Shown here: positions 26,589 through 44,145 of the stretch, piece after piece | Position numbering within the stretch: the first letter of the stretch is position 1 | Layout of the letters: each line of letters starts with the position of its first letter | DNA from: Candidatus Omnitrophota bacterium | GTDB lineage: Bacteria > Omnitrophota > Omnitrophia > Omnitrophales > JACQQS01 | Reading direction: 5' to 3' | DNA length: 45,944 bases | NCBI GenBank assembly: GCA_016206925.1 | Contig: JACQQS010000010.1 | Location: forward strand, 1-45,944 | Translations under genes and position numbers: made by a program | The notes under the pieces: generated by a model | Database searches by the model: none | Told to the model about the DNA's origin: nothing | What the model saw: only the letters and a program-made list of their open reading frames with translations

Positions 26589-29300
26589 ATGCCCGTACAG
26601 TTCCTAAAAAGCGTTCTTTCCCCCATCCTGAGAGTCAAGAAAAACGAATGGCCTCAGGCCCTTCTCACATTTGCTTACTTTTTTTTGGTCATTACAGCTC
26701 TCTACATTATCAAACCGGTCCGGGACTCGCTTTTTATCGGTCAGCACGGCGCTAAAGACCTTCCATTTGCTAAAATTTTAACGCCCATCGTGTTGGTGGC
26801 CATGGTCTGGTTCATGGTGGGGCTTGTGCGCTTCCTTAAGAAAAATGTTTATCTGTCCTCCTGCGTGGCTTTTTCCGTAATCGTGCTGCTGGCGTTTTGG
26901 TGGCAGGCTGGACAGCCGCGGTTCTGGATTGCCTACACATTTTACGTCTGGGTAGGAATTTATTCGGTGCTGAACGTAACGCTTTTTTGGACTGCTGCCA
27001 ACGATATTTTCGACGTGCGCGAGGCGAAAAGGCTTTTCGGATTTGTCGGAAGCGGGGGAATCCTCGGCGGGATTGTCGGCTCGTCCATTACGGCGAAGCT
27101 CGCGACCGTTGTCGGAACGAGATCGCTCTTGCTGATCGCGGCGTTTCTTCTGCTTTTTTGTATCCCTATCATTAACGTTCTGTGGGTAATCAAACGGCGC
27201 GAAGGGACTGCATCTGCAAGTTCCGAAGAAGAGGGGAGGACTCAATTCCGGGTGGGGGAGGCCCAGCGGAGTTTTGGGGATTTTCTTAAAGCGCTTGTGG
27301 AGGTATTTCGCAATCGATACCTTTTTATCGTGTTGATCTTGATTTCATTCGCGAAAATCGCGTCTTCCGTTATCGATTATCAATTTAAGAATATTGTGGA
27401 GGTTCTTGAGCAGGATCAGCTCACCGCTTCCTTCGGCACTTATTATCTTTACGCCAACACGGTTTCGCTCATCATTCAATTTTTCTTTACAAGTTTTATT
27501 CTCCGGAAGTTGGGCGTCGTGGCCGCCTTGTTCCTGTTGCCCGTCGGTGTCGCTACGGGGTCTCTCGGAATTTTGATTCACCCGGAGCTTTGGATCGGAC
27601 TCATGACCTGGATTTACGACAAAGGAATGAATTACTCTTTAAATCAAACAACCAAGGAGGTGTTGTATCTGCCTGTTGACCGGGAAACGCGCTATCGCGT
27701 AAAGCCCGTTATCGATATGGTCGGATACCGCGCTGCGGATATGCTTGGAAATGTGCTGATCATCGCTTTCTCCGAAGCCGGAGATTTCGGTGTCCGCAAA
27801 CTCAGTTTGGTTACGTTGGCGATCACCGGTATGTGGATTCTCATGGTCGTTATCATGAAAGGAGATTACCGCAACCGCCTTCGTACCTATTTGGCTCGGG
27901 GTCCTATTGTGCAGAAAGGGAATTTGGTGAGCCGCTCCATGGTTTTGCTTTTTGGCTCACTGCTCGAAGCCATGGGAAAGCATCATCAAGAAGAGCAGCT
28001 TTTTTTGATGCGCGGTTTGAATGTCGCAAAGAACCTTGAAAGCGCGGAAGCATTTAAATGGCGGATCCAGCAAGTCAAGACCGACGAGCCCGTTTCCATC
28101 GTAAAAATGCTGGAAGAAGAACGGAAAGCCAGGCAGCGTGATCAAGAGATCCAGGATATTCTGGAAAAGGGAACGGTTGAAGAATCCGGCGAACGCGTTC
28201 TCTATGTGGCCAGGTATCGGACGAGATCTGCACAGCGTATCGCGTCGCTCATGCAGAAGTCTTCATTTTCTTCCATCCGCTTAGGCGGCACCATAGCGGA
28301 ATGCGCTTATTACACTTCCGTGGATTACTTAAGGGATAACATCGGCCGTCTTATCGAAGACGCGCGTGCTGAACGGGAAAAGGAACGCGAGATCATGCTG
28401 GATGTAGCGAGGCGCCGTGCTCCATCTGAAGCCGAGTCCAGCGCTTTCGTAGCCGTCATGAAATCACAGAAGAAAGAAGATCTGGAAACCCATGCACCGT
28501 GGCTGCGTAAAGGCGGCTGGGTGGTGGATTGTGTCGTAGATTGCATTAATGAACAGCGCCTTGGCATGGAGTGGCGCTATGGACTCCCTCTCATGCTGAC
28601 GCTTATGCCGAAGAACGAAGCGGTTGATGTGCTTCAGGAACTGTTGAGTCACAGGAACACCACGGTCCGTTTTAACGCATTGAAAGCACTCAACAAAATG
28701 CGCGCGGCCAACGGCGATCTTTCTCTGGACCAGCCGCTCTTGGAATATGAAATTTCCCAGTCGGTCGAGCGCTGGCATCACGCCAGTAAATTAAAAGCAG
28801 CTTTCCACATATATTGTCTTAAGCGAAATGTGCATGAATTGCCCGATGACCGGTTTCTCGAGGCGCAGGAAAACCGCATGGATGACTTGGAAGAACGGAT
28901 TTTCCGGCTGTTCGGACTTTTTTGCGGGTGCGAGGAATCGTTTCAAATCTATAATGCGCTCCAGCAGACAGATGCGCAGCTCCAGGCCAATGCCATGGAG
29001 CTTTTGGACGAAATCCTTCCGCCGCGCCTGAAAAAGCCGCTTCTGGACATTCTGGATGAGGATGCCAGCGAGTTTAACGGGGCCGGGACATTTGAAGAAA
29101 AACAAGCCGGGGCTTATCTTAGTAAAATATTGTCCGACGGCACGCGCTGGAACACACTCAGCGCCATAACGCTGATCGTGCGGTTTGAACTGGACGGTTT
29201 TGATGAAGATATCAAGAAACTTACAGACGCCCGGGATCCGTTGATCCGGAATGTTGCGAAGGCAGTGGTAGAGGAACTCATCTACGCCGATGACCGCTAG
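26589..29300 (+). CDS. ATP/ADP translocase-like carrier with soluble C-terminal region
   Basis: The 903-aa product has an N-terminal carrier domain of about 440 residues with 11-12 membrane helices similar to the nucleotide transporter (TLC, Npt/NTT) family: FFLVITALYIIKPVRDSLFIG, YVWVGIYSVLNVTLFWTAANDIFDVREAKRLFGFVGSGGILGG, FGTYYLYANTVSLIIQFFF, and NQTTKEVLYLPVDRETRYRVKPVIDMVGYRAADMLG. Classic members exchange ATP and ADP in obligate intracellular bacteria and plastids, but many free-living bacteria carry relatives with unknown substrates. The remaining 460 residues are soluble and helical with HEAT-like units (VDVLQELLSHRNTTVRFNALKALNKM). That tail is not part of classic carriers. It overlaps the following glycosyltransferase gene by 11 bp. 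Confidence 0.82.
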   Translation: MPVQFLKSVLSPILRVKKNEWPQALLTFAYFFLVITALYIIKPVRDSLFIGQHGAKDLPFAKILTPIVLVAMVWFMVGLVRFLKKNVYLSSCVAFSVIVLLAFWWQAGQPRFWIAYTFYVWVGIYSVLNVTLFWTAANDIFDVREAKRLFGFVGSGGILGGIVGSSITAKLATVVGTRSLLLIAAFLLLFCIPIINVLWVIKRREGTASASSEEEGRTQFRVGEAQRSFGDFLKALVEVFRNRYLFIVLILISFAKIASSVIDYQFKNIVEVLEQDQLTASFGTYYLYANTVSLIIQFFFTSFILRKLGVVAALFLLPVGVATGSLGILIHPELWIGLMTWIYDKGMNYSLNQTTKEVLYLPVDRETRYRVKPVIDMVGYRAADMLGNVLIIAFSEAGDFGVRKLSLVTLAITGMWILMVVIMKGDYRNRLRTYLARGPIVQKGNLVSRSMVLLFGSLLEAMGKHHQEEQLFLMRGLNVAKNLESAEAFKWRIQQVKTDEPVSIVKMLEEERKARQRDQEIQDILEKGTVEESGERVLYVARYRTRSAQRIASLMQKSSFSSIRLGGTIAECAYYTSVDYLRDNIGRLIEDARAEREKEREIMLDVARRRAPSEAESSAFVAVMKSQKKEDLETHAPWLRKGGWVVDCVVDCINEQRLGMEWRYGLPLMLTLMPKNEAVDVLQELLSHRNTTVRFNALKALNKMRAANGDLSLDQPLLEYEISQSVERWHHASKLKAAFHIYCLKRNVHELPDDRFLEAQENRMDDLEERIFRLFGLFCGCEESFQIYNALQQTDAQLQANAMELLDEILPPRLKKPLLDILDEDASEFNGAGTFEEKQAGAYLSKILSDGTRWNTLSAITLIVRFELDGFDEDIKKLTDARDPLIRNVAKAVVEELIYADDR

Positions 29301-30108
29301 CAGAACTTCCATAGAACTTGCTCCGCTCAGCGTCACGATCGTCACCAAAAATGAGGAGAAGCGTATACGCGAGTGTATTGAAAGCGTGCGTTGGGCGGAA
29401 GATATTTTGCTGATCGATGACGGCAGTACGGACGGCACTGTTCCGATGGCTAAGTTGCTTGGGGCCCGGGTGATCGCGCGGGAAGGGGAAAAGATCAACG
29501 AAGGGAAGTTTCGCAACTGGACGCTTGAAAAAGTCCGGTTTGATTGGGTGCTGAAACTTGATGCGGACGAACGGGTGACTCCGGAGCTGGCGGAGGAAAT
29601 CAAGCAGCTATTGAAGATGGGGCCTCAGTACCGCGGTTACGCCATTCCGCGGCAAAATTACATCGGGGATTATTGGGTGAAATTCGGCGGGTGGTATCCG
29701 GCCCGCCAGCTTGTTCTTTTTAACCGGCAGTACTTTCGCTGGGAAGAGGTTGAAGTCCATCCCCGGGTTTTCCTCGACGGGCCCTCTGGCCGGCTGAAAC
29801 ACGATATCATTCATTTCTCCTACAGGGATTTCAGCCATTTTTTCGAGAAGTCAAACCAGCAGACAACCTGGGAAGCACAGAAATGGCTGAAAGAGCGGCG
29901 TAAAATTGGGCCGTTTCTCTGTGCCCGGAAGATGGTGGACCGGTTTTTGAAGACCTACGTTCTGAAGCAGGGATTCCGGGACGGATTTGTCGGATTTGCC
30001 GTGGCGGTTTTTAACGGGCTTTATCAGTTTGCGAGCTACGCGAAGTATTGGGAATTATTGCGCAGAGAAAAGAAAGAAGAAGAGCGCCGGAATTCCTCAG
30101 ACGTTTGA
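29290..30108 (+). CDS. Family 2 glycosyltransferase, WaaE-like
   Basis: The 272-aa product is a GT-A fold glycosyltransferase. The nucleotide-binding part has VTIVTKNEEKRIRECIESV and ILLIDDGSTDGT; the metal-binding motif is LKLDADERVTPEL. The second half (GYAIPRQNYIGDYWVKFGGWYPARQLVLFNR, HPRVFLDGPSGRLKHDIIHFSY, FFEKSNQQTTWEAQKWL) follows the LPS core beta-glucosyltransferase/WaaE subgroup that acts at the inner membrane on lipid A-core. Acceptor and donor cannot be read from sequence. The ATG lies inside the end of the carrier gene, and the end overlaps the convergent SDR gene by 12 bp. Confidence 0.88.
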   Translation: MTASRTSIELAPLSVTIVTKNEEKRIRECIESVRWAEDILLIDDGSTDGTVPMAKLLGARVIAREGEKINEGKFRNWTLEKVRFDWVLKLDADERVTPELAEEIKQLLKMGPQYRGYAIPRQNYIGDYWVKFGGWYPARQLVLFNRQYFRWEEVEVHPRVFLDGPSGRLKHDIIHFSYRDFSHFFEKSNQQTTWEAQKWLKERRKIGPFLCARKMVDRFLKTYVLKQGFRDGFVGFAVAVFNGLYQFASYAKYWELLRREKKEEERRNSSDV

Positions 30109-31032
30109 ATACCGCGAATTCCGGATCATCGTATAGCCCTTGATTAATTCCACAATGCCGTCGTCCAGCGAGAATATGGGCTTGAATCCGGTTTTCTCGA
30201 TTTTTTCGTTCGAGACAATGTAATTCCGCTTGTCGACATCTTCTCCGTATGCCGCTTCGTGTATGACAAAGGGAAGATGTTTCTTAATCCGCACGCAAAG
30301 TTCCTTCTTGGACAAGTTTGCGTCAGAAAGCCCCACGTTGTAGGCCCCGCCGCACATTTGTGAAAACCGGTCTAAGCCGTGTAAAAATACGCGCGCCACG
30401 TCCCGGATATGAATATAATTTCTCTTCGCGTGCCCTTCAAAAAGCACGATGAACCGGTCGTGCATGGCGCGGTACGTGAAATCATTCACTAAAAGATCGA
30501 TCCGCATGCGTGGCGACATGCCGAATACCGTTGCCAGCCGGAAACTAATGGAGTTTTTCCGCCTGAGCACGGCTTCCTCCGCTTCCACTTTTAACCGCCC
30601 GTAAAGCGAAACGGGCCGAAGCGGTGTTTTCTCCGTGCAATATCTTCCCTTCTGACCGACCCCATATCCGCTGTTGGTTGTCGGAAAGAGAATCTGCTGT
30701 TCCCGGCCCATGTGTTTAGTCATCATCATAATGGCATCGCGGTTGGTAGTCGTTGCCGCGATTTGATCTTGGTTACAGAGCGGCGCGCCTACCCATGCCG
30801 CAAGCGGAATAATGGCATCTGATTTCTTGAGAAGCGGTTTTATCGTGGATTCCGAGCGTACATCGCCGCGCACAATTTTAAAATGAGGATGATAACAGAC
30901 ATGAGCCAGACTGTTCTGGCCATACATGAAATTATCGAGTACGGTTACGGAATGTTCTGCCTCAAGCAAGGCCGGCACCAAGATCGATCCAATGTATCCC
31001 GCTCCCCCTGTAACTAAAATATTCTGTCCCAC
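30097..31032 (-). CDS. NAD-dependent epimerase/dehydratase (SDR), operon distal
   Basis: The 311-aa protein is an extended short-chain dehydrogenase acting on nucleotide sugars. The Rossmann motif is VTGGAGYIGS at the N-terminus; active-site elements are TTNSGYG (118-124) and the YGRLK pair with Tyr144 and Lys148, all intact. A late RNYIHIRDVARVFLHGL and GGAYNVGL complete the family pattern. It is similar to UDP-glucose 4-epimerase or related 4-reductases, but the substrate is not predictable. As the last gene of the minus-strand sugar operon it could set the final stereochemistry. A 24-bp perfect palindrome separates it from the preceding gene. Confidence 0.88.
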   Translation of the reverse strand: MGQNILVTGGAGYIGSILVPALLEAEHSVTVLDNFMYGQNSLAHVCYHPHFKIVRGDVRSESTIKPLLKKSDAIIPLAAWVGAPLCNQDQIAATTTNRDAIMMMTKHMGREQQILFPTTNSGYGVGQKGRYCTEKTPLRPVSLYGRLKVEAEEAVLRRKNSISFRLATVFGMSPRMRIDLLVNDFTYRAMHDRFIVLFEGHAKRNYIHIRDVARVFLHGLDRFSQMCGGAYNVGLSDANLSKKELCVRIKKHLPFVIHEAAYGEDVDKRNYIVSNEKIEKTGFKPIFSLDDGIVELIKGYTMIRNSRYSNV

Positions 31033-31052
31033 ATCATCACCTCTTGGATGGC

Positions 31053-31076
31053 AATTTTGGCCACGTGGCCAAAATT
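31053..31076. repeat. Perfect 24-bp palindrome between two SDR genes
   Basis: AATTTTGGCCAC is followed directly by its exact reverse complement. It fills the centre of the 47-base gap between the last two genes of the sugar operon. As RNA it would form a 12-bp stem without a loop; as DNA it could be a protein-binding site or one unit of a dispersed palindrome. It includes the E-box-like CACGTG. Confidence 0.75.
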
Positions 31077-31079
31077 AAC

Positions 31080-32054
31080 CTACACCGTTGTTTTTATTCG
31101 AGTTTCTTCATACCATGCCAATGTTTTTACAATTCCCTCATCGAGCGAAACCTTCGGAGACCAGCCGAAGATGTTCTTCGCCCGGTCAATATTTAACGAA
31201 AGCTTGAAGTTAATGCTTGGCTTTGATTTGTCGTATTCAACCTTAAGATTCTTGCCGGAAATTTCTATGATCTTTCGTACGAGCTCGTGAACGGATATCG
31301 ATTTTCCGAGCCCCACATTGACCAGTTCAAACGGGGCCATTTGTTTCTGGAGGGCGCAATTCACAAAAGAGATCAAGTCGTCCACGTGCAGCAAATCGCG
31401 TTCTTCCGATCCGTCTCCCCACACCGTTATCTTTCCGTCCGCCGCCTTCATTACTTTGGTCACGGTTGCCCCGAACACATGCGACCGTTCCAGATCGAAT
31501 TTATCGTGCGGGCCGTAGATATTGGAATGCCGGATGGCTGTGTATTTGGTCTGACCGATGCGTGCGTAAAATTCACATAACTTTTCAATGTAAACCTTAG
31601 TCCATCCGACGCCAAAGTATTTGTCGATGATGCGGTAGTCGAAGTCAGTTTCCTTGACCGGCCGGGGTTGTTCCGAATACATCGTTGTGCAACTGAAGAA
31701 AATCACGTGTTTTACTTGCTGCTCATGGCAGGCGCGGAATAGGAGCGAATTCATGACGGCGTTGTCGGTTACATGGTAATACGGCTTTGAAACGATATCT
31801 TTCGCTCCGGACGTGGTGGCTGCCGCCTGTATGACGATGTCTTTTCCTTTGATGACATCATTTACCTCGGTTTTGTCCGTTAAATCTGCCTTGAGCAGCT
31901 TTACGCGAGAAGGAATTTGCGCATTCGGCGGCAAGGGATTCTTCAAATATGTTCCCCAAACTTCAAACTCGGGTTTTGAGGCATAGTAGCTGAGGAGATT
32001 CCGGCCTATGAATCCGGAAGCGCCTAAAATCAGTAATTTCTTCGGAGACGCCAT
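31080..32054 (-). CDS. SDR nucleotide-sugar enzyme, GDP-fucose synthase-like
   Basis: The 324-aa product has an N-terminal LILGASGFIGRNLLSYY Rossmann motif, FFSCTTMYSE with the Ser/Thr of the active site, and a C-terminal region IRHSNIYGPHDKFD, then KITVWGDGSEERDLLHVDDLISFV and LVNVGLGKSISVHELV, all close to GDP-L-fucose synthase and similar epimerase-reductases. The normal YxxxK pair is altered: the lysine is in GVGWTK, but the residue four before it is Val, not Tyr (the nucleotide sequence was checked). Tyr and Phe lie a little further upstream (DKYFGVGWTK), so the loop may be shifted. It may reduce a 4-keto intermediate made by the operon. Confidence 0.85.
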   Translation of the reverse strand: MASPKKLLILGASGFIGRNLLSYYASKPEFEVWGTYLKNPLPPNAQIPSRVKLLKADLTDKTEVNDVIKGKDIVIQAAATTSGAKDIVSKPYYHVTDNAVMNSLLFRACHEQQVKHVIFFSCTTMYSEQPRPVKETDFDYRIIDKYFGVGWTKVYIEKLCEFYARIGQTKYTAIRHSNIYGPHDKFDLERSHVFGATVTKVMKAADGKITVWGDGSEERDLLHVDDLISFVNCALQKQMAPFELVNVGLGKSISVHELVRKIIEISGKNLKVEYDKSKPSINFKLSLNIDRAKNIFGWSPKVSLDEGIVKTLAWYEETRIKTTV

Positions 32055-32073
32055 GTATGAATCAAACCTAATT

Positions 32074-32745
32074 TTAGCGGTGAATAAGTTCCGCGGCGAT
32101 AAGCCTCAAAATATCCAGGCCGTTTAAAAGTGGGTTCATCTTTCGAATGCCGCCGATGCGTTTAGGCTCGCTGGCCGGAATTTCTGTCACCTTTAATTTC
32201 TGTTTGGCGGCGCGGATCGAAAGAATCGGTTCCATGCCGGCCCGCGGCACGTCGATATGCAATTTCTTCACGATATCTTTCTTGAAAGCGCGGAGCATGA
32301 CGAGTGAATCCGTGTAATGCCCGCCGAAGCAGATATTGATGAGTGTAGTGAACATCCAATTGCCAAATGCCGTTACGGGGTCATCATCCTCGCTCTTTGC
32401 GCCTTTTAGGTATCGCGATGCAATGACCATGTCGTAGCCTTCTTTCATTTTGTCGATAAGCGCCGGGATGACTTCAGGCAAAGAATTCCCGTCCGGACTG
32501 AAGGAAACGATGATGTCCCCCCGCGCAGTCTCCATAGCCTCACGGTACGCATTGGTAATTCCTTTCGATCTTTGCATGACCAGACGGTAACCCATCTTTT
32601 TGGCGTATTCAATCGTACCGTCCGTTGAATGCCCGTCCAGCACCAGAATCTCATCCGCCCATTCCCGCTTGATGCGCGGCATGATGGCTTTCATGCCTTC
32701 AATTTCATTTAAGGTAGGGACAAAAAGCGTTGTTTTCATTGACAT
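32074..32745 (-). CDS. Family 2 glycosyltransferase
   Basis: The 223-aa protein is a compact GT-A glycosyltransferase related to polyprenyl-phosphate sugar transferases (DPM1-like): TLFVPTLNEIEGMKAIMPRI, ILVLDGHSTDGTIEYAKKMG, RGDIIVSFSPDGNSLPEVIPALI, and VIASRYLKGAKSEDDD. The C-terminal part lacks the membrane helices seen in some relatives, although a short hydrophobic stretch (AFGNWMFTTLINICFGG) is present. It could load the sugar made here onto a lipid carrier or chain. It follows the GDP-mannose-dehydratase-like gene after an 80-base gap containing a strong hairpin. Confidence 0.87.
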   Translation of the reverse strand: MSMKTTLFVPTLNEIEGMKAIMPRIKREWADEILVLDGHSTDGTIEYAKKMGYRLVMQRSKGITNAYREAMETARGDIIVSFSPDGNSLPEVIPALIDKMKEGYDMVIASRYLKGAKSEDDDPVTAFGNWMFTTLINICFGGHYTDSLVMLRAFKKDIVKKLHIDVPRAGMEPILSIRAAKQKLKVTEIPASEPKRIGGIRKMNPLLNGLDILRLIAAELIHR

Positions 32746-32754
32746 TTGTCAGAT

Positions 32755-32813
32755 TTCCGCGTGCGCGGAATGACGACGGCGAACATTTCCGCGCTGGCGC
32801 GGAAATGTTCGCC
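32755..32813. repeat. Double palindromic repeat between GT2 and Gmd-like genes
   Basis: TTCCGCG-TG-CGCGGAA (32755-32770) is followed by a 16-bp perfect stem, GGCGAACATTTCCGCG paired with CGCGGAAATGTTCGCC around CTGG (32778-32813). It occupies most of the only sizeable gap inside the sugar operon. The stem could stall Rho or RNases and thus lower expression of downstream genes, or simply be an interspersed repeat; no T tract follows on either strand. Confidence 0.75.
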
Positions 32814-32825
32814 GCTACGCTTGTT

Positions 32826-33815
32826 TTATTTTCTTTCTTTAGCGATACGTTCACGCCAGTATTCCAAAAGGTGTTTGACGCTGTCTTCGAATTTGTGTTT
32901 TGGTTTCCAGCCGGTTTCCTTTGTAAATTTATCGACACAGGGGATCTGGAGCGTGACATCGGAAGGGCGGAGGAGAGCGGGATCGACCCTGCTTTTAACG
33001 GGTACACGGCTTTGTTTCTTGAGGAGTTCCAGAAATTCGCCGACCGTCAACGATCGATTTCCGCCGATATTGTAGGCTTCGCCGGGTTTACAGCGAATGA
33101 CAGCGACCCAATAGGCCTCCATAGCGTCACGAACGTCAATCATGGTTCGAACCGAGTCAAGATTCCCGTGAAGCAGTTCTTTCTCAAGGCCCGCTTCTAT
33201 TCGGGCGATCTGCTTGGCAAAGGAGGTGGCAAAGAGGTCGTCACGACGCGGATTGATGTAAGCAAACATGCGCGTTCGGATAATTTTCATGTTGTAGCTT
33301 CGGAAATAAGTAAATCCCAGAAGGTCCTGCGCTGCTTTAGAAACAGCGTAGGGGCTTAGAGGTCGTAGGGGACAATCTTCGCGAATAGGCACATTTTTTG
33401 GGTCTACTTGACCGTATACTTCGGAGGTGCTGCAAAGCTGAATCATTGGATCAATACCACCGAGCCGGATGGCTTCGAAAAGATTGCACGTACCCAGAAT
33501 ATTATTGCTGAGCACGGCTTGGGGATTGTCGAAGGAACTTCTTACGTTGGCATGTGAAGCGAGGTGAAAGACGCCGTCCGGTTTTACATTCCGGATGACG
33601 GAAAATACGGCCCCAAAATCGTTTAAATCACAGTCGTGCAGCTTAATTTTATCTTTGATCGCACTCAGGTTATTCAGCGATGTGGTGCTGTGCCAGCGGA
33701 CAATACCATGGACCTCTACCTGCGGCTGGTGCTTCACGATATATTCGGCGAGATAACTTCCGCCCGAGCCGGCTGCACCGGTAATTAGCGCTTTCCGAAT
33801 ATTTTTCTCCGTCAC
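32826..33815 (-). CDS. GDP-mannose 4,6-dehydratase-like SDR
   Basis: The 329-aa protein matches the GDP-mannose 4,6-dehydratase group: RKALITGAAGSGGSYLAEYI at the N-terminus, VEVHGIVRWHS (NADP-binding arginine region), the catalytic Thr-Ser-Glu in CSTSEVYG (129-135) and Tyr156/Lys160 in LSPYAVSK. The stretch GNLDSVRTMIDVRDAMEAYW is also seen in the reductase Rmd, so a 4-reductase role cannot be excluded. The expected reaction converts GDP-mannose, or GDP-D-glycero-D-manno-heptose, to the 4-keto-6-deoxy derivative. This would be the entry step of the pathway in this operon. It overlaps the preceding SDR gene by 4 bp. Confidence 0.88.
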   Translation of the reverse strand: MTEKNIRKALITGAAGSGGSYLAEYIVKHQPQVEVHGIVRWHSTTSLNNLSAIKDKIKLHDCDLNDFGAVFSVIRNVKPDGVFHLASHANVRSSFDNPQAVLSNNILGTCNLFEAIRLGGIDPMIQLCSTSEVYGQVDPKNVPIREDCPLRPLSPYAVSKAAQDLLGFTYFRSYNMKIIRTRMFAYINPRRDDLFATSFAKQIARIEAGLEKELLHGNLDSVRTMIDVRDAMEAYWVAVIRCKPGEAYNIGGNRSLTVGEFLELLKKQSRVPVKSRVDPALLRPSDVTLQIPCVDKFTKETGWKPKHKFEDSVKHLLEYWRERIAKERK

Positions 33816-34618
33816 GATGTTTTCACCTTCTGTTGCTGCGATTTTCTTTTCGGTAAGTCCTCCCTCAGGAATTGATCGATCATTTCTTCGGAGGTTTGTT
33901 TAAAGACGGGGAAGACCGAACTGATTTTCCTATTGACCATGTTTCCGGTTGAGTAACGGAACGTCCCGAAATTAACTTTTTTCCTGAGCATCTCCGCAAC
34001 CTTAAGCAGGCTGATATTCTCTCGCGAGCAGACATTGTATATGCCTTGAAGATTGCTTCCGACGGAAAATTTAATGAAATCGGCTACTTGGCTGTGCCGG
34101 ATGTAATTCATGACGGAATCCGCGCTCAAAGTGAGCGTGGGGCGGTCCTCCTCCGCGATTTTGATTAAGGAGTTTGGGCGCGCGTGGACGCCAAGCAGAG
34201 CGGCACAGCGGAGAATAAGGTAATTCCGGCATTTTTGCTTCACGAGCGCTTCGGAAATCAGTTTACAGACGGCGTAGAAATCGGGAGCCTTTTCGAGAGG
34301 AATATCTTCTTCCTCATGATGGGGATCCACGGTTTTCGGGTAAACACCGATAGAAGAAATGCATATGAATTTCTTATGCGGAATCTGAATCATCCGGTCC
34401 GTTAGAAAGATATTATCGTCGATGAACGGGAAGAGCGCGTCCGACTTCACCGCCTGCGGCCGGCGGGCTGCGCAGTGAATAATAATGTCAACACCTTCCT
34501 GCCGGAGGCGACCCATTTCTTCAAGCGGAGTATTGCGGCCGAGTCCTCTTCCGCCGAAGCACTCCTTTAAATGCTTTCCGAGGCCGCTTTCGTGTCCGCT
34601 AATTAGATAGGTCGCCAT
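33812..34618 (-). CDS. SDR (NAD-dependent epimerase/dehydratase-like) protein
   Basis: The 268-aa product is a short extended-SDR protein: TYLISGHESGLGKHLKECF stands in place of the usual Gly-rich motif, followed by IIIHCAARRP, FICISSIGVYP and YAVCKLISEALV, which supplies a YxxxK pair (Tyr and Lys both present). LILRCAALLGVHARPNSLI and IYNVCSRENISLLKVAEML continue the pattern. The N-terminal nucleotide-binding motif is atypical (GHESGLG), so cofactor preference is open. It is likely a reductase or epimerase on the pathway. It starts six bases after the next upstream gene and overlaps the Gmd-like gene. Confidence 0.8.
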   Translation of the reverse strand: MATYLISGHESGLGKHLKECFGGRGLGRNTPLEEMGRLRQEGVDIIIHCAARRPQAVKSDALFPFIDDNIFLTDRMIQIPHKKFICISSIGVYPKTVDPHHEEEDIPLEKAPDFYAVCKLISEALVKQKCRNYLILRCAALLGVHARPNSLIKIAEEDRPTLTLSADSVMNYIRHSQVADFIKFSVGSNLQGIYNVCSRENISLLKVAEMLRKKVNFGTFRYSTGNMVNRKISSVFPVFKQTSEEMIDQFLREDLPKRKSQQQKVKTS

Positions 34619-34624
34619 TTTCGC

Positions 34625-35617
34625 CTAAAAGAATTTTGCTTCCTTAAAAACGTTGTAGCGTTTATGAACGGCATCTTTGTTTTTCTTGTACCACTCCATG
34701 GTTTCGCGAATCCCTTCCTCAATGGAAATCTGGGGCTGAAATCCTAAGGCATGCGCTCTTGCCATATCCATCAACCGTAACTTATCACCGGAGGGTTTTG
34801 CCGTGTCCCAGATAACATCCGGCTTCTTGTCTAAATTCCGCACAATGATTTCCACGATGTTCCGGATTGTGGCGCCGTTTCCGGAGCCAAGATTGACGGG
34901 TTTTCCGGGCAACTTCTCCATGACCAGGAGCATTCCCTGCGCAACGTCCTTTGCGTGAATAAAGTCCCTGATGGCGGAACCGTCGCCCCAAACGGTGAGC
35001 GGATCTTCTCCGTCAAACGCTCTCCGTATGAGCGACGGGATGACCATGGCATTCTCGGGATCAAAATTATCGTAGGGGCCATAAACATTGGCCGGCCGCA
35101 CAATCGCAATGTCTTTCCAGCCGTATTCAATGGCATAAGCCTCGGCTTGCAGTTCGCCCATGCGTTTGGCCCACCCGGCAAAGCGGTCGTTTTCAGAGGG
35201 AAGCGTTTTCCATACATCATCCTCTTTGAAAATCTCGGCCGGCGCATAAACGCCAATCGTGCTCGTAAATAGATAACGCTTTACGCCCCTAACGCGGGCC
35301 GCTTCCATCATATTTGTGTTAAAAGTGATCGTTGGAACAAAAAAGCTGGCCGGCTTTTTAGCGGTCATGGCCGGCGAACCTTTGATTCCCGCCAAGTGAA
35401 AAACAAAATCAATCCCTTCGCAGGCGTCCAGGCAGTTTTCAAGTTTCATGAGGTTTGCTTGCTTAAATTCGGCCTTGGCGTGAGCGCGGGAAGGATCATC
35501 CAGCGAAGCGATTCGAACCCGCGCGCCTTTGTCGATGAGCATTTCGACCAGCGGCCGGCCGATCAATCCCGTGCCCCCGGTTACGAGAATTTTTTTACCA
35601 TGGAAAAAGTTCATCAT
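34625..35617 (-). CDS. SDR nucleotide-sugar enzyme, GDP-fucose synthase-like (second)
   Basis: The 330-aa protein has KKILVTGGTGLIGRPLVEML, VFHLAGIKGSP, LFTSTIGVYAPAEIF and the downstream VRPANVYGPYDNFDPENAMVIPSL and PLTVWGDGSAIRDFIHAKDVAQGM typical of GDP-fucose synthase-type reductase-epimerases. As in the gene at 31080-32054, the YxxxK tyrosine is not in place: DRFAGWAKRMGE has Ala four residues before the Lys (checked on the nucleotide sequence). Related enzymes normally read YGWAK. It is separated from the E1 beta gene by two bases. Confidence 0.86.
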   Translation of the reverse strand: MMNFFHGKKILVTGGTGLIGRPLVEMLIDKGARVRIASLDDPSRAHAKAEFKQANLMKLENCLDACEGIDFVFHLAGIKGSPAMTAKKPASFFVPTITFNTNMMEAARVRGVKRYLFTSTIGVYAPAEIFKEDDVWKTLPSENDRFAGWAKRMGELQAEAYAIEYGWKDIAIVRPANVYGPYDNFDPENAMVIPSLIRRAFDGEDPLTVWGDGSAIRDFIHAKDVAQGMLLVMEKLPGKPVNLGSGNGATIRNIVEIIVRNLDKKPDVIWDTAKPSGDKLRLMDMARAHALGFQPQISIEEGIRETMEWYKKNKDAVHKRYNVFKEAKFF

Positions 35618-35619
35618 TG

Positions 35620-36660
35620 CTAAAACGGCCCTTTAAATTTTTCTTCCCATGAGTAAAACGTTTCGCCTGACAGGTCTGTTTCCTCTAGGCCCAGCATTTT
35701 CTCAATCGTGCGTATGATGGTGACGGCGGAAGGATAAAATACATTCTCAAGCGGACGGGTTGTCGGACAGGGCGTATGCGCGAATCCGATGCGTTCAACC
35801 GGATTCTTTAATTTCCCGAAGCATGCCTTTGATACTTGCGCGGCTACTTCGGCGCTGAAGCCGCAGAAAATCCAATCGTAGTCGGCAACGATACAACGCC
35901 CCGTTTTCTTTACGGACTGAATGATCGTTTCGCCGTCCAAAGGATATATTGTCCTGGCATCGACCACTTCAAGCGATACCTTTCTTTTTGCGAGAATCTC
36001 GGCGGCTTTCATGGCTTCCACATTCATCCACGAGGTGGAAACAATGGTTACATCTTTCCCCTCGCGGTGAATTTTAGCCCGGCCCAGGGGGATTTTTGTC
36101 TCTAATTCCACTTCTCCCGACGCGTCGTAGAGCCAGCGGTGCTCAAGAAATATGACGGGATTATCGTCGCGGATAGATGAACGCAATAGGCCATAAGCAT
36201 CCTGCGGAGACGAGGGCATGACCACTTTTAAGCCGGGGATATGCGCGAAAACGCTTTGGAGCGATTTGCTGTGCTGAGCGCCCTGTCCCCAGCCCCGGCC
36301 GATGACGGCGCGGATAACCAACGGGACCTTTAATTGGCCTGCCGTGAGGTAATGCGCGTTGGCCACCATATTCACGATTTGATTCATGGCAAGTATCATG
36401 AAATCGACACGAATGTGCGTGTGAACGGGCCTCAGGCCGCTTATGGCCGCGCCGAGCGCAACGCCGGTCATGGCGTCTTCCGAAAGCGGGGTTCCAAAAC
36501 AGCGTTTGGGCCCGAACTTTTCCAGGAGACCCGCCGTGCTTCCAAAAATGCGTTTGTGATCAGGTACGTCAAGGCCGAAAACAAAGACATTTTCATCGGC
36601 GGCCATCTCGTCAGAGAGCGCATGATTTATAGCCTGTCTAAATGTCAGGGTTTCTTTCAT
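35620..36660 (-). CDS. ThDP-dependent E1 beta subunit (transketolase C-like)
   Basis: The 346-aa product is the beta chain of an alpha2-beta2 thiamine-diphosphate enzyme of the pyruvate/2-oxoacid dehydrogenase E1 type: LTFRQAINHALSDEMAADENVFVFG, the cofactor-activating glutamate in GTPLSEDAMTGVALGAAISG (Glu60 or nearby), FMILAMNQIVNMVANAHYLTAG, GWGQGAQHSKSLQSVFAHIPGLKVVMP and the C-terminal VSLEVVDARTIYPLD. The alpha chain is encoded two genes upstream, with the DegT gene in between. No lipoyl E2 or E3 gene is near, so oxidative decarboxylation is unlikely; a C2-transfer (acyloin-type) reaction is inferred. Its ATG overlaps the stop of the DegT gene by one base. Confidence 0.9.
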   Translation of the reverse strand: MKETLTFRQAINHALSDEMAADENVFVFGLDVPDHKRIFGSTAGLLEKFGPKRCFGTPLSEDAMTGVALGAAISGLRPVHTHIRVDFMILAMNQIVNMVANAHYLTAGQLKVPLVIRAVIGRGWGQGAQHSKSLQSVFAHIPGLKVVMPSSPQDAYGLLRSSIRDDNPVIFLEHRWLYDASGEVELETKIPLGRAKIHREGKDVTIVSTSWMNVEAMKAAEILAKRKVSLEVVDARTIYPLDGETIIQSVKKTGRCIVADYDWIFCGFSAEVAAQVSKACFGKLKNPVERIGFAHTPCPTTRPLENVFYPSAVTIIRTIEKMLGLEETDLSGETFYSWEEKFKGPF

Positions 36661-37856
36661 CAGAGACCATTCAATACTTCGCAGAGCCGCTTAATTTTTT
36701 CAAGCGGCAGACCGGGATAATTTCCGATGTAAAATCCGTAAAAGTGAATATGCTCTGTGTTGGGAAATTTTTTATGCTCTCTGTTGCCAAGCAATCGCCG
36801 CAAATAAGGCTGGCGCAATTGATTGCCTCCGCCGGACGTGCCGCGGCGGTACTCTACACTGCACCGGTCAAGCGCCGCCGTGACTTTTCGGGAAAATTGG
36901 GGATCCGGTTCTCTCAGCACGAGTGTAAATGCGTAATTACTTGCGCCGTCCAGCGCAAAATCGGTCCGGTACCGGGACACATCAAGATGCGTTAAAAAGA
37001 ATCTCAGATTTCTGTTTCGTTTTTTGATTTCCCCGTCCAGACGTTTCAAGTGGCTGCGGCCGATTACGGCGTTAATTTCGGCGCTGCGGACATTATATGC
37101 CGGAAACGCAAATATGAATTCCGGATTCAAATCGGGGAATTTTTTTCGATAGGAAGATTTTAATTTATCCGAGGCGGATTCCCGGACAAGGCCATGCGAC
37201 CGGAGCATGCGCACCGTTTCATATATTTTTCTGTCGTTGGTCGAGACCATGCCTCCTTCGATGGTGGTCAGATGGTGCGCGTAATAAAAGGAGAAATTCG
37301 AAGCGTGGCCAAAAGAGCCCACCTTTTTCCCCCTGAATGCGGCGCCGTGGGACTCGCAGGCATCTTCGATGAGAAGCACGTTGGCTTTCTTGATTCCGTC
37401 GAGCAATTTCTGACTGAGAGCATTGTAGCCCAATATGTGCGTGAGAAATACCGCCTTGGTTCGCTTGGTGATTTTCTCTAAGACCTCTGATTCATCCAAT
37501 CCCAGCGTGCGCGGATTAATGTCGGCAAAAACGGGTTTAAATCCGCATTGGATGACCGAAGCGATATCCGAAACCCATGTGAGGGGAGGAACGATAATTT
37601 CTCCCGTTCCGAAAATCTCGCGCAGGGCGGCCATGGTCACCAGGTTTGCGGATGAACCGGAATTTACCATGACGCTGTATTTCACGCCGAGCCATTTCGA
37701 CCACTCCCGCTCAAATGCGCCAACATTTTCAGACTGCGTTAACACAGGGTTCGTCTTCAAAAATTTGACGGCGGCATCCAAATCGGATGCCGAGATGTTG
37801 TTTTGCATCAGGGGCCAATTCAGTCCGCGGGGTTTAGCCATTTGCGCTAAAGACAT
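36660..37856 (-). CDS. DegT-family PLP enzyme with Lys-to-His change, ColD-like 3-dehydratase
   Basis: The 398-aa protein has the fold of sugar aminotransferases (NSGSSANLVTMAAL, PPLTWVSDIASVIQCGFKPVFAD, LLIEDACESHGA with the pyridine-binding Asp165). The Schiff-base lysine expected in SFYATKN-type motifs is replaced: SFYYAHHLTTIEGG has His194 at that position. The same substitution defines the 3-dehydratases ColD and E1/RfbH, which remove the C3 hydroxyl of 4-keto-6-deoxy sugars. The [2Fe-2S] cysteine cluster of RfbH-type E1 is absent, favouring the ColD type (GDP-linked substrate). GTSGGGNQLRQPYLRRL near the end agrees. It overlaps E1 alpha by 23 bp (or 8 bp if ATG 37841 is used) and touches E1 beta. 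Confidence 0.9.
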   Translation of the reverse strand: MSLAQMAKPRGLNWPLMQNNISASDLDAAVKFLKTNPVLTQSENVGAFEREWSKWLGVKYSVMVNSGSSANLVTMAALREIFGTGEIIVPPLTWVSDIASVIQCGFKPVFADINPRTLGLDESEVLEKITKRTKAVFLTHILGYNALSQKLLDGIKKANVLLIEDACESHGAAFRGKKVGSFGHASNFSFYYAHHLTTIEGGMVSTNDRKIYETVRMLRSHGLVRESASDKLKSSYRKKFPDLNPEFIFAFPAYNVRSAEINAVIGRSHLKRLDGEIKKRNRNLRFFLTHLDVSRYRTDFALDGASNYAFTLVLREPDPQFSRKVTAALDRCSVEYRRGTSGGGNQLRQPYLRRLLGNREHKKFPNTEHIHFYGFYIGNYPGLPLEKIKRLCEVLNGL

Positions 37857-38826
37857 GTTCGAAAAGCATGCTGGGGGACGGGAAAGGAGCGGATTTGGCT
37901 TTTTCTATGCTTTGCTTTATTTGCGCATCGACGGTACGGTTCACATTTGTTATTTCCTCTTCTCCCAAACCTTGCGACCGAGCCCAAATCCCGGCATGGG
38001 TCAGCGGATCTTTTTCCCGCAGGGTTTTTTCGTCCGGTCTTGAGCGGTATCCGGCGGCGAAATCTTCGTGCACACCCACGTGTTCCAGGTATCGGAAATA
38101 GTCAAAGCTGAGAAATGCCGGTTTGGGATCGCCGGCCATTTTTTCAATAACCGATCGCGCTGCTCCCATGATCCTTTGCGGCAGGTGGCCCGGCGCTTCG
38201 GCGGCGTGGCAGTCAAAGGCGCTTACGGTAGAAAGCGCCGACCTGGAACTTTGGCGGTCACGGACATGCGCGTGAATGGCGAGCTCGTTATTTTCACAAA
38301 CGAATAGGATGCGAAGTTTTTTGAGGCAGGCGAAGTTAAGGCTTTCCCAGAATGCGCCTTCCTCTAATGCGCCGTCGCCAAAAAAAACCGCCGTGTAGTT
38401 TCCGCTGTTCCTATACCAGTCTGCAAATGAAGCGCCCACCGCAGGGGGAATGGTCGTTCCCACCACGGCCGATGTAAGGAAAAGGCCGCTTTCCGGCGCG
38501 GTCAGATGCATGGATCCCGCAAGCCCGGAAGCACAGCCCGTTACGCGGCCATAAAGCTCGCCAAAAAAGCGGTCCGTGTTTTCGGTGACGGCCAAAAAAA
38601 GACTATGATTGCGGTACGTTCCGAATGTTTTTGTAGTTTCGGCCAGGCAGGCCAGCACGCACGCCGGGATGGCTTCGGCGCCGTTGGAAAGATGTACGGG
38701 CGTTTTCATTTGATCTTTCGCGTATTCGGACCGAATGGCCTCCTCGCACTTTCGCGCAAGATAAATCTTTCGATAAATACCCAGCGCTTTCTCTTTGGAG
38801 ATGGAAACGGAATGGGTTTGCTTCAT
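37834..38826 (-). CDS. ThDP-dependent E1 alpha subunit
   Basis: The 330-aa product is the alpha chain of a 2-oxoacid dehydrogenase E1-type enzyme. The thiamine-diphosphate motif is complete: GDG at 150-152 in VFFGDGALEEGAFWESLNFA and the closing NN at 179-180 in LFVCENNELAI. TYRNHSLFLA, GSMHLTAPESGLFLTSAVVGT and VGASFADWYRNSG follow the family. The C-terminal phosphorylation-loop region is present but atypical (HAHVRDRQSSRSALS). It pairs with the beta chain at 35620-36660. The DegT-type dehydratase gene is sandwiched between the two, with overlaps at both ends, so the three proteins are probably made in fixed proportion and act on one substrate. Confidence 0.9.
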   Translation of the reverse strand: MKQTHSVSISKEKALGIYRKIYLARKCEEAIRSEYAKDQMKTPVHLSNGAEAIPACVLACLAETTKTFGTYRNHSLFLAVTENTDRFFGELYGRVTGCASGLAGSMHLTAPESGLFLTSAVVGTTIPPAVGASFADWYRNSGNYTAVFFGDGALEEGAFWESLNFACLKKLRILFVCENNELAIHAHVRDRQSSRSALSTVSAFDCHAAEAPGHLPQRIMGAARSVIEKMAGDPKPAFLSFDYFRYLEHVGVHEDFAAGYRSRPDEKTLREKDPLTHAGIWARSQGLGEEEITNVNRTVDAQIKQSIEKAKSAPFPSPSMLFEHVFSANG

Positions 38827-38847
38827 AGGGTCAATGCGCGGAGGGTT

Positions 38848-39846
38848 TTAGGAAAAGTTATCGGATTCGTAGAGGACAATCTTGCTCCCTCCCGTTTCAA
38901 ACCGAAAGGTCACATGAATGAGATGTTTCAATTTTTCCTTAATGCGCGGCTGATCTTCGGGTTTTGCAAAGAAGAGCATGAATCCGCCGCCGCCCGCGCC
39001 TAAAAGCTTGCCGCCCAGAGCGCCGGAATCCCTGGCGGCCTGATAGATCTCATCAATAGCCGGTGTGGACACCGCATCCGCAAGGCTTCTTTTGTATTGC
39101 CAAGTTTCGTGCAGAAGTTTTCCGAACTCATCAAGTTTCGCTGTTTTGCCGCTTAATATGGAAAGCGCCTGATCCACCATTTCCAGCATACGCTTGAGCT
39201 CTTGTTTTTTCTTTTCCATATTGGCTATCTGGGCTTTTGCCACTTCAGCGGCGTAGCGAGAAAATCCCGTGAAAAAGAGCATGAGGTTATCTTGAAGCTG
39301 TTGCAATTTATCTGCTTTCATCACGACCGGCGTTGCCTCAAACGTATCGTCTGGATTTAGCTGGATTTTCCTGAAACCCCCGTAAGCGGCGATAATGGAA
39401 TCCTGCGTACCCACGCATTCTTTGAGGACTTGGTGTTCTATATGCAGCGCGCTTTTTGCCAGGTCCGATTTGGATATAATTTCGCCCCGAAGAGCCTTTA
39501 TGGCATTCACCATTCCGACCGTAAATGTGGAGCTGGTGCCGAGGCCGGAGCGGGCGGGAAGATCGCCGTCGTGATGAATTTCAAGTCCTTTATCTGCCCC
39601 CAGCGTTTGAAGTACGGCCCGAACCGAGGGATGTTGAATTTCTGATAATTCATTTACACTTTCAACTTTTGAATAAACGATTCTGTGCTTATAGCCGAAG
39701 AAAGGAGGGAGATGACGGACGCTAATATAGCAATATTTGTCTATGGCCGTTGACAGGACAGCGCCGCCATGCTGCCGGTACCAGTCCGGGTAATCGGTTC
39801 CGCCGCCGAAAAACGAAATGCGAAAAGGTGTCCTGCTAATGATCAT
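38848..39846 (-). CDS. GHMP kinase, D-glycero-alpha-D-manno-heptose-7-phosphate kinase-like
   Basis: The 332-aa product is a GHMP-fold sugar kinase close to HddA: MIISRTPFRISFFGGGTDYPDWY at the N-terminus, the ATP-binding loop LPARSGLGTSSTFTVGMVNAI (97-117), HIEHQVLKECVGTQDSIIAAYGGFRKI and GALGGKLLGAGGGGFMLFF. HddA phosphorylates heptose 7-phosphate at C1 on the route to GDP-D-glycero-alpha-D-manno-heptose. The isomerase GmhA, phosphatase GmhB and guanylyltransferase HddC are not in this window. It is the promoter-proximal gene of the ten-gene minus-strand operon, with a TATAAT-containing promoter directly before the ATG and no Shine-Dalgarno sequence. Confidence 0.88.
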   Translation of the reverse strand: MIISRTPFRISFFGGGTDYPDWYRQHGGAVLSTAIDKYCYISVRHLPPFFGYKHRIVYSKVESVNELSEIQHPSVRAVLQTLGADKGLEIHHDGDLPARSGLGTSSTFTVGMVNAIKALRGEIISKSDLAKSALHIEHQVLKECVGTQDSIIAAYGGFRKIQLNPDDTFEATPVVMKADKLQQLQDNLMLFFTGFSRYAAEVAKAQIANMEKKKQELKRMLEMVDQALSILSGKTAKLDEFGKLLHETWQYKRSLADAVSTPAIDEIYQAARDSGALGGKLLGAGGGGFMLFFAKPEDQPRIKEKLKHLIHVTFRFETGGSKIVLYESDNFS

Positions 39847-39930: not shown

Positions 39931-39961
39931 TTGCGTAAAAACAGCTTCTGCGCCCTATAAT
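39931..39961 (+). promoter_or_regulatory. Candidate promoter of the GT-C gene
   Basis: TTGCGT (39931-39936) and a perfect TATAAT (39956-39961) are 19 bases apart, a wide spacing. The -10 box overlaps the possible TTG start at 39961, which supports the ATG at 39997 as the true start. The site is divergent from the sugar-operon promoter, in a shared 150-base region. Confidence 0.4.
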
Positions 39962-39996
39962 TGTATGGTGAACGACTCTCCCATTTCATATCTAAA

Positions 39997-43593: not shown

Positions 43594-44144
43594 TTAATTT
43601 TTTCCGGCGGTTTCGGAGCCAAATCGCGCGTTAAATCCGATTTCCCGCCTTGGTTTTTCAGATGCTCGAATCAATTGTTTTATGGCTTTGAAAACGATGC
43701 GGAACTGCCCGTCGTATTTCCTCTCCATTTCTTCGATTCTCCGCTTTAAAGCTTTATGGGCAGAAAGCATTTCCCGGAATTTTGCAAATGTTCGCATGAT
43801 TTGAACGTTGACTCGAATTGCTCGTTCACTATTGAGGACGCTAGAAAGCATCGCAACGCCTTCTTGTGTGAAGGCATAGGGTAAATAGCGAATTCCACCT
43901 GCTGATTTGAGATGCCAAATTGGCATCTCAAATGTTCGAGTTCCTTTTGAGTCAACCGGAACATAAAATCCGCAGGGAAGCGCCCAAGATTTCTTTTAAC
44001 AGCCCGATTTAGAGCGCCTGTTTCAACGCCGTATAGTTCAGCCAAATGGCGATCGATCATGACTTTCTTGCCCTGGACCAGGAAAATTTTCCTTTCAATC
44101 AGTTCTTCGGGAATGCTAATTTCTGATTTCGGTCTTTTCTGCAT
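43594..44144 (-). pseudogene. ORF6N-domain gene interrupted by a frameshift
   Basis: The first part (from ATG 44144) reads SIPEELIERKIFLVQGKKVMIDRHLAELYGVETGALNRAVKRN, then FPADFMFRLTQKELEHLRCQFGIS, the usual ORF6N domain of phage-type and DNA-binding accessory proteins. The frame then changes, and the rest of the protein is in another frame: AGGIRYLPYAFTQEGVAMLSSVLNSERAIRVNVQIMRTF and the coiled-coil end. The lesion maps to the short A run (T run on the plus strand, 43906-43908): one extra base there would join the frames as ISKSAGGIRYLPYAF. It lies at the edge of a perfect palindrome. It may be a true lesion, a phase-variation site or an assembly error. Confidence 0.8.
43906..43932. repeat. 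27-bp perfect palindrome at the ORF6N frameshift
   Basis: TTTGAGATGCCAA and TTGGCATCTCAAA are exact reverse complements with a single central base. It lies inside the broken ORF6N gene, and its first bases coincide with the inferred frameshift. Confidence 0.75.
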
Positions 44145-44145
44145 T

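Follow-up and report, generated by a model that had tools for sequence, protein, structure and literature searches.

A ten-gene operon that interleaves E1-like and DegT genes

The stretch of DNA analysed here, hereafter the window, is 45,944 nucleotides long and comes from contig JACQQS010000010.1 of Candidatus Omnitrophota bacterium (assembly GCA_016206925.1; genome G000, 2.01 Mb in 87 contigs, 86% complete). Between positions 30097 and 39846, a first-pass annotation made from the sequence alone had described ten tightly packed genes that may build a GDP-linked branched 3,6-dideoxy sugar. Open reading frame (ORF) calling bore out both coordinates and strand: ten ORFs lie there on the minus strand, and neighbours either overlap, by up to 23 bases (E1 alpha/DegT), or are separated by no more than 80 (Gmd-like/GT2). 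These ten same-strand genes form a real operon.

Read from 39846 towards 30097, the operon opens with an HddA-like GHMP-family sugar kinase (38848-39846; PF00288/PF08544), for which HddA was the best NCBIfam model (131.7 bits, cut-off 600) and the best PDB matches were 3k85 (heptose kinase), 4usm (putative sugar kinase) and 4n3o (putative HddA). Next come the E1 alpha-like subunit of a thiamine diphosphate (ThDP)-dependent enzyme, a proposed C2-transferring carboligase (37834-38826; PF00676, E1_dh, 1.8e-37), a DegT-family enzyme of the pyridoxal or pyridoxamine phosphate (PLP/PMP) type (36660-37856; 7.5e-69) and the E1 beta-like subunit (35620-36660; Transket_pyr and Transketolase_C). The remaining genes encode an extended short-chain dehydrogenase/reductase (SDR) resembling GDP-L-fucose synthase and proposed to reduce the branch or C4 carbonyl (34625-35617; NCBIfam Fcl 155.9 bits, cut-off 500; PDB GDP-fucose synthetase, 6e-36), a short RmlD/epimerase-like SDR (33812-34618; PF01370, 3.9e-9), an SDR of the GDP-mannose dehydratase family (32826-33815), a family 2 glycosyltransferase (GT2) resembling polyprenyl/dolichyl-phosphate sugar synthases (32074-32745; PF00535; best NCBIfam model AglJ, 113.9 bits, cut-off 325), a second extended SDR of the GDP-L-fucose-synthase type, also a proposed reductase (31080-32054; Fcl 136 bits, cut-off 500; PDB GDP-fucose synthetase, 7e-26), and a Cj1427-like SDR, proposed to be a GDP-heptose C4-dehydrogenase (30097-31032). 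Pfam thus assigned five proteins to the SDRs, the GDP_Man_Dehyd one included, and its families agreed with those named earlier (GHMP kinase, E1 pair, DegT, SDRs and GT2). None of the ten proteins had a match at E <= 0.001 to the TPP_enzyme domains of a YerE-type single-chain ThDP enzyme. In the related locus L035, the relative of the short SDR belongs to a longer protein of 582 residues, which contains two epimerase stretches.

The DegT protein is of the ColD type

Among solved structures, the four that matched the DegT protein best were all of the ColD-type GDP enzyme, with E from 1.5e-51 to 7e-50; Lys-type aminotransferases ranked next (4e-39 and 4e-38), ahead of the CDP enzyme (4e-34); its best NCBIfam model was RfbH (196.6 bits, cut-off 423). 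When the sequences were aligned, the protein of the window showed His at the column that is occupied by His, Asn or Lys in the three ColD-type entries displayed. We take this column to be H188 of ColD, the Asn and Lys entries being presumably mutants. The ColD-type Lys-to-His change claimed for this protein was thereby borne out, since the protein is closest to ColD and carries His in place of the PLP-binding Lys.

We then compared DegT proteins by their distance from E1 genes. At 1.5 kb or less from E1, 41 of 45 carried His (3 Lys, 1 gap), and those of the same survey lying farther away comprised 24 His, 13 Lys and 1 Asn. The control consisted of 50 other DegT proteins from the order, of which 48 carried Lys, one His and one Asn; they were taken from 109 places in 30 genomes as the 30 best-scoring and 20 chosen by hand along the list, with 11 rows already identified as ColD-like left out. 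Six of these 11 adjoin E1 genes and five do not in the DNA read (G005, G058, G026, G062 and G088). Counting control and ColD-like rows together, about 12 of 61 DegT places of the order are His-type; when all 11 rows were counted as His within the control, the difference persisted at p 1e-14, a value that is not a strict probability as the sequences are related. The comparison supports the earlier proposal that C3 deoxygenation is coupled to a ThDP-dependent two-carbon transfer on a GDP sugar, with the E1 pair in the role of YerE.

Relatives of the DegT protein at 55-69% identity were found in 11 other genomes of the phylum. E1 alpha homologues at E <= 1e-30 occur in 72 of the phylum's 285 genomes (a count that takes in the source genome of the window), but five of the genomes with DegT relatives (G005, G058, G091, G026 and G088) had none. 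A split transketolase lies near the DegT gene in G091 and G026 (loci L100 and L101). Kinase, nucleotidyltransferase and DegT genes stand together in G005 and G058 (L098 and L099), the latter also having Gmd-like and Cj1427-like genes, and the 16-20 kb read at these two loci gave no E1, transketolase or acetolactate-synthase-type match; the G088 locus is a 5-kb contig. One DegT family accompanied by E1, by a split transketolase or by no ThDP gene would be expected if a shared deoxy-keto sugar is branched in some lineages by a ThDP enzyme and left unbranched in others, an argument from comparison of loci.

The association recurs in many phyla

Related E1 loci were collected as those nearest to the window's E1 alpha and not as a random sample: 33 stretches represented 84 places outside the window, and a second scan of one genome per species with a seven-sequence alignment (A1) found 90 relatives, of which 80 loci were returned. 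Ten repeat loci were dropped from the counts, as was L106, which shares a contig with L035, and three plasmid loci were counted apart. This left 104 E1 loci, read in six frames over stretches of 3.3 to 21 kb, or 46 kb in the case of the window, and all counts below refer to the DNA so read. The scan loci came from Omnitrophota, Deltaproteobacteria, Nitrospira, Elusimicrobia, Bdellovibrio-type bacteria, Verrucomicrobia, Planctomycetes, Chloroflexi, Simkania, Heliobacterium, archaea and others; among the archaeal loci, L135 has a His-type DegT and three others show none.

A His-type DegT gene was present in 65 of the 104 loci. These 65 also contained an HddA-like kinase (57), a Cj1427-like SDR (52), a B12-binding radical SAM protein (46), an HddC-like gene (39), an AglJ-like GT2 (25) and a Gmd-like gene (14), with 58 having a Cj1427-like or a Gmd-like gene. 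The corresponding numbers for the other 39 loci were 10 HddA-like, 6 Cj1427-like, 6 HddC-like and 12 Gmd-like, and 8 of them had a split transketolase. The E1 pair is therefore not tied to the His-type DegT. Conservation of the alpha-DegT-beta gene order, which the first-pass annotation had suggested searching for, was seen in part: the two E1 genes and the His-type DegT gene are consecutive in another order at 57 loci (and otherwise present together at 2), whereas the interleaved order of the window itself is seen at only 6 of 104.

Two further proteins stood out in these loci. The radical SAM protein is absent from the operon of the window, and its member in L101 had HpnJ and BchE as best models, under cut-off. 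An HldE-like protein with its domains reversed, adenylyltransferase before kinase, is encoded at L037:15274-16800 and has relatives in 8 of the 104 E1 loci.

The sugar is probably a heptose

A heptose is favoured by the HddA-like kinase, the Cj1427-like SDR and the HddC-, GmhA- or GmhB-like genes of related loci. From these resemblances the sugar acted upon would probably be GDP-D-glycero-D-manno-heptose rather than GDP-mannose; the GDP sugar proposed earlier is thus retained, with mannose the less likely of the two. The genome also encodes a GmhA-like protein (C80, 196 amino acids) whose best models are phosphoheptose isomerases, under cut-off (213.7 versus 276 and 201.6 versus 209.45). Gene sets in two cultured bacteria point to GDP-heptose as well. 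A single gene run on plasmid pDMC1 of Solidesulfovibrio magneticus RS-1 holds an AglJ-like GT2, a radical SAM protein, an HddA-like kinase, E1 alpha, E1 beta, an SDR annotated as GDP-fucose synthase, a His-type DegT, a Cj1427-like SDR, an L-2-hydroxyglutarate oxidase, a GmhA-like isomerase, an HddC/ManC-type nucleotidyltransferase (best model mannose) and a glycosyltransferase that its annotation calls lipid-carrier-dependent. Next to Cj1427-like, E1 and His-type DegT genes, AZO_p6 of Azospirillum lipoferum 4B carries a fusion of a nucleotidyltransferase with a GmhB-like phosphatase.

The same chemistry could instead run on a hexose, with GDP-mannose converted to GDP-4-keto-6-deoxymannose, deoxygenated by the ColD-type enzyme and extended by acetyl transfer from the E1 pair to a yersiniose-like GDP-octose. 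Such a route would agree with the kinship of the DegT protein to ColD, an enzyme of the mannose derivative, and with the gene content of the host, where ManB- and ManC-like genes are present and an HddC-like gene was found neither in the operon nor in the 86%-complete genome: the four NTP_transferase matches of the genome look like RmlA, GlgC, ManC and GlmU (ManC labelled by model, GlgC and GlmU by Pfam domains, RmlA by reading of the sequence). Of seven HddC-like relatives, moreover, three scored best to mannose-1-phosphate guanylyltransferase and four to HddC, all below the HddC cut-off of 300. However, GDP-mannose synthesis is not known to involve an HddA-like anomeric kinase, heptose is indicated by the Cj1427-like gene and by the HddC-, GmhA- and GmhB-like genes of the relatives, and the Gmd-like protein scores lower to GMD than to either RMD or the heptose dehydratase. 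We consider the hexose route unlikely.

Source of the 4-keto group

The operon holds both a Cj1427-like and a Gmd-like gene, and the product of either could supply the 4-keto group. Model scores for the Gmd-like protein were 194.5 bits for RMD, a reductase, 188.4 for GDP-heptose 4,6-dehydratase and 133.2 for GMD, and it has an RW loop in common with the heptose dehydratase. At the T/S-x-E motif, the residues do not tell whether such a protein is a dehydratase or a reductase. The label of Gmd-like 4,6-dehydratase given earlier therefore stands as to family, while the activity could be that of either enzyme; a true GMD is not supported by the scores. The protein falls in a clade that comprises 12 different proteins (14 rows), shares the motifs (T/S)SEVYG and NPRR and comes entirely from His-type DegT loci (three without E1); the Gmd-like proteins of the His-type DegT loci L054, L056 and L135 fall outside it.

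The Cj1427-like SDR is 52% identical (162/310 residues, E 2e-106) to PDB 6vo6, which is listed as a putative sugar-nucleotide epimerase/dehydratase and which we take to be Cj1427 of Campylobacter jejuni, a name that could not be confirmed in print for this entry. Its S, Y and YxxxK residues were kept in 49 of 49 aligned rows (the window counted twice). Within the 65 His-type DegT loci, a Cj1427-like gene occurs without a Gmd-like one in 44, both occur in 8, Gmd-like only in 6 and neither in 7; L035 is tallied under Gmd-like only, but L106, on the same contig, holds a Cj1427-like gene, so that this contig carries both. Because of the 44 loci with a Cj1427-like gene alone, the 3,6-dideoxy sugar of the first-pass annotation holds for the C3 deoxygenation, which the comparison backs, but is unsure for the 6-deoxy part. 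Loci with the Cj1427-like gene alone would make a 3-deoxy sugar that keeps O6. The predicted common theme of the His-type DegT loci is a 3-deoxy-4-keto heptose, to which the operon of the window may add 6-deoxygenation.

A homologue of L-2-hydroxyglutarate oxidase (LhgO) was seen in eight loci, one of them a plasmid (L039, L049, L050, L108, L119, L146, L168 and L245), seven of which also have a Cj1427-like gene. The three homologues tested exceed the NCBIfam cut-off, and the genome of the window has one L-2-hydroxyglutarate oxidase-like protein under cut-off (229 versus 299). LhgO may recycle L-2-hydroxyglutarate made by the Cj1427-like dehydrogenase, a pairing of which a single search of the open-licence literature gave no report.

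The E1 pair lacks E2 and E3 partners

Both subunits keep the residues of a working ThDP enzyme: the ThDP motif and loop His of E1 alpha were present in 42 of 42 rows and the active-site Glu and His of E1 beta in 44 of 44 (the window counted twice in each). No E2 or E3 gene was found in the operon, nor in the DNA read at any of the 104 E1 loci, in agreement with the earlier description of a two-subunit E1-like enzyme without these partners. Against NCBIfam, E1 alpha fell far under the cut-off of the pyruvate dehydrogenase (PDH) model (213.5 versus 393.85) and E1 beta just exceeded that of a PDH beta subfamily (332.5 versus 321). Elsewhere in the genome there is one other E1_dh match, a weak one (23.5 bits, cut-off 22), and a single E2 match (PF00198), flanked on one side by an AceE-type E1 (1297.6 bits, cut-off 859.9) and on the other by an E3-type flavoprotein.

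An E1-type pair acting on sugars has precedents in print, as the first-pass annotation had noted for AviB1/AviB2. E1-type "alpha-KADH2" enzymes have been reviewed as putting C2 branches on antibiotic sugars, and KbDH-alpha/beta was reported to carry out C2 branching in vitro with pyruvate and ketones, sugar analogues included (PMC12247030). Pau11/Pau12, AviB1/AviB2 and EvdU5/EvdS3 have been described, with proposed reactions (PMC4425429, PMC10338323). The pair could also act on the keto sugar with another donor (for example a hydroxyacetyl or a longer 2-oxoacid donor) or at another position, or before C3 deoxygenation. A split transketolase replaces E1 beside the same DegT family in L100 and L101, the 39 loci lacking a His-type DegT are compatible with such variation, and the YerE-like ErwE is reported to take longer donors, E1-type enzymes being able to branch at C3 (PMC12247030). 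Yet the E1-type products listed in that review are stated to bear a C2 branch throughout (PMC12247030), and we judge this variant to be quite improbable.

That the pair is instead an ordinary PDH or branched-chain 2-oxoacid dehydrogenase (BCKDH) E1 served by a distant E2, its position in the operon being incidental, an outcome that the first-pass annotation had named as fatal to its proposal, was rejected as very improbable: the E1 beta score and the presence of an E2 in the genome would allow it, but the only E2 detected sits between its own AceE-type E1 and E3-type flavoprotein, no E2 or E3 was seen in the DNA read at the 104 E1 loci, and six of them have E1 genes interleaved with DegT.

Variants of the E1-like genes were met during the survey. 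Alpha and beta are fused in one polypeptide in L037, L049 and L050. A second, divergent E1-like pair lies at L036:1787-4341, the N-terminus of its alpha protein having a weak mannose-6-phosphate-isomerase-like match. In L044, L045 and L048, three kinds of ThDP enzyme share one gene set: E1 alpha/beta, a split transketolase and an enzyme of the acetolactate-synthase type, with a class I aminotransferase close by.

Neighbouring genes

Upstream of the kinase, on the plus strand, lies a divergent multi-span membrane protein (39961-41712) with ten membrane spans predicted by hydropathy and no match in a Pfam search; it is possibly a GT-C glycosyltransferase using the lipid-linked sugar. On the other side of the operon, positions 26589-29300 encode a 903-residue protein with a match to the TLC ATP/ADP transporter family (7.7e-18) and a long C-terminal extension. 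TLC-type ATP/ADP carriers are known from intracellular bacteria. An ORF at 43746-44249, which by eye presumably resembles an ORF6N/KilA-type domain, overlaps the end of a ComM/YifB-like gene.

Proposed pathway and comparison with known systems

From the protein families, assigned by sequence, and their association, established by comparison of loci, we infer substrate, donor, order of steps and destination as follows. Either the Cj1427-like C4-dehydrogenase would introduce the 4-keto group, or the Gmd-like protein would do so while eliminating the C6 hydroxyl. The His-type DegT enzyme, with PMP and glutamate, would then remove the C3 hydroxyl, and E1 alpha/beta would decarboxylate a 2-oxoacid, most likely pyruvate, and pass the two-carbon unit to the C4 ketone without E2 or E3. 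The new carbonyl would be reduced by the Fcl-like SDRs and the nine-carbon sugar placed by the GT2 on polyprenyl phosphate for transfer across the membrane, so that the product is probably a rare nine-carbon branched surface sugar, its two extra carbons supplied by a type of enzyme otherwise at home in central metabolism. The mass gains of 42 and 44 Da expected by the first-pass annotation are wrong: pyruvate minus CO2 adds C2H4O, or +44.03 Da, and +46.04 Da after reduction.

These steps would yield a GDP-activated heptose that is deoxygenated at C3 and branched at C4, and we give this reading of the operon a probability of roughly 0.63. Several observations pull the other way. The HddA, Fcl, Gmd and GT2 matches are all under their NCBIfam cut-offs; HddC was not found in the operon or in the 86%-complete genome, where ManC is present, and the HddC-like relatives are divided between heptose and mannose models. 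In addition, two candidate sources of the 4-keto group stand in one operon, 39 of the 104 E1 loci are without a His-type DegT, and pyruvate is put forward as the donor by analogy with precedents.

Our preferred reading is that the operon unites two known pathways, the synthesis of a GDP-3-deoxy (or 3,6-dideoxy) heptose and E1-type C2 branching, in a combination that is new. No pathway with this set was found in the open-licence literature, the first-pass annotation having named none either, and E1-type branching joined to a GDP-heptose or to a ColD-type enzyme was likewise not found described there. On a wider scale, we lean slightly towards a widespread, undescribed pathway for nine-carbon branched GDP-heptoses, combining Cj1427-type C4 oxidation or 4,6-dehydration, ColD-type deoxygenation and E1-type addition in many bacterial phyla and in archaea. 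The branch would be set by a ThDP module that can be exchanged, being an E1 pair, a fused E1, a split transketolase or absent altogether. If so, E1-type branching would move from antibiotic sugars to the apparent cell-envelope glycans of many phyla and be joined to a GDP-heptose pathway. A class of envelope sugars not met in the open-licence literature searched, C3-deoxy C4-branched heptoses, would then be predicted, and could be sought in the cultured carriers S. magneticus RS-1 and A. lipoferum 4B. The ThDP enzymes of the set may make chiral tertiary alcohols on sugar nucleotides, and the occurrence of one DegT family with an E1 pair, a split transketolase or no ThDP enzyme would amount to a natural experiment in branch chemistry.

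Among known systems, the ColD/GDP-colitose pathway resembles the operon in having a His-type DegT enzyme that acts on a GDP 4-keto sugar, a comparison made via structures. GDP-colitose is a hexose made without branching, and to our knowledge its pathway has no HddA-like kinase. The deoxygenation of a heptose has its counterpart in C. jejuni, where GDP-heptose is converted by a 4,6-dehydratase and a PLP C3-dehydratase; the latter acts on GDP-6-deoxy-4-keto-heptose and shares 62-67% identity with its counterparts from E. coli O55 and Y. pseudotuberculosis (PMC10440746). Cj1427 together with the HS:5 C3-dehydratase yielded GDP-3-deoxy-4-keto-heptose in vitro, which makes the corresponding chemistry feasible (PMC10680097). 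The HS:5/HS:11 GDP-3,6-dideoxyheptose pathway and the HS:2 Cj1427 branch share with the operon an HddA-like kinase, a Gmd-family SDR, a ColD-like C3-dehydratase and Fcl-like and Cj1427-like SDRs (PMC10440746, PMC10680097). They differ in that the available passages on them mention no ThDP enzyme, and in having HddC and GmhA, which are not in the window's operon.

The antibiotic E1-type enzymes (AviB1/AviB2, Pau11/Pau12, KbDH-alpha/beta and EvdU5/EvdS3), likened here by architecture and gene context, provide as in the window a two-subunit PDH-E1-like enzyme within a deoxysugar gene set (PMC12247030, PMC4425429, PMC10338323). Unlike the operon, they serve antibiotic sugars, and the available parts of these papers do not mention a ColD-type DegT. 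Yersiniose A resembles the proposed product in being an envelope sugar in which a C3-deoxy 4-keto sugar, CDP-4-keto-3,6-dideoxyglucose, receives a ThDP-dependent C2 addition at C4 (PMC12247030, PMC4753412). In Gram-negative yersiniose synthesis, a single flavoprotein, YerE, is used for this step (PMC4753412). YerE is a single-chain enzyme of the decarboxylase family working on a CDP carrier, whereas the window encodes a two-subunit E1 for which a GDP carrier is proposed.

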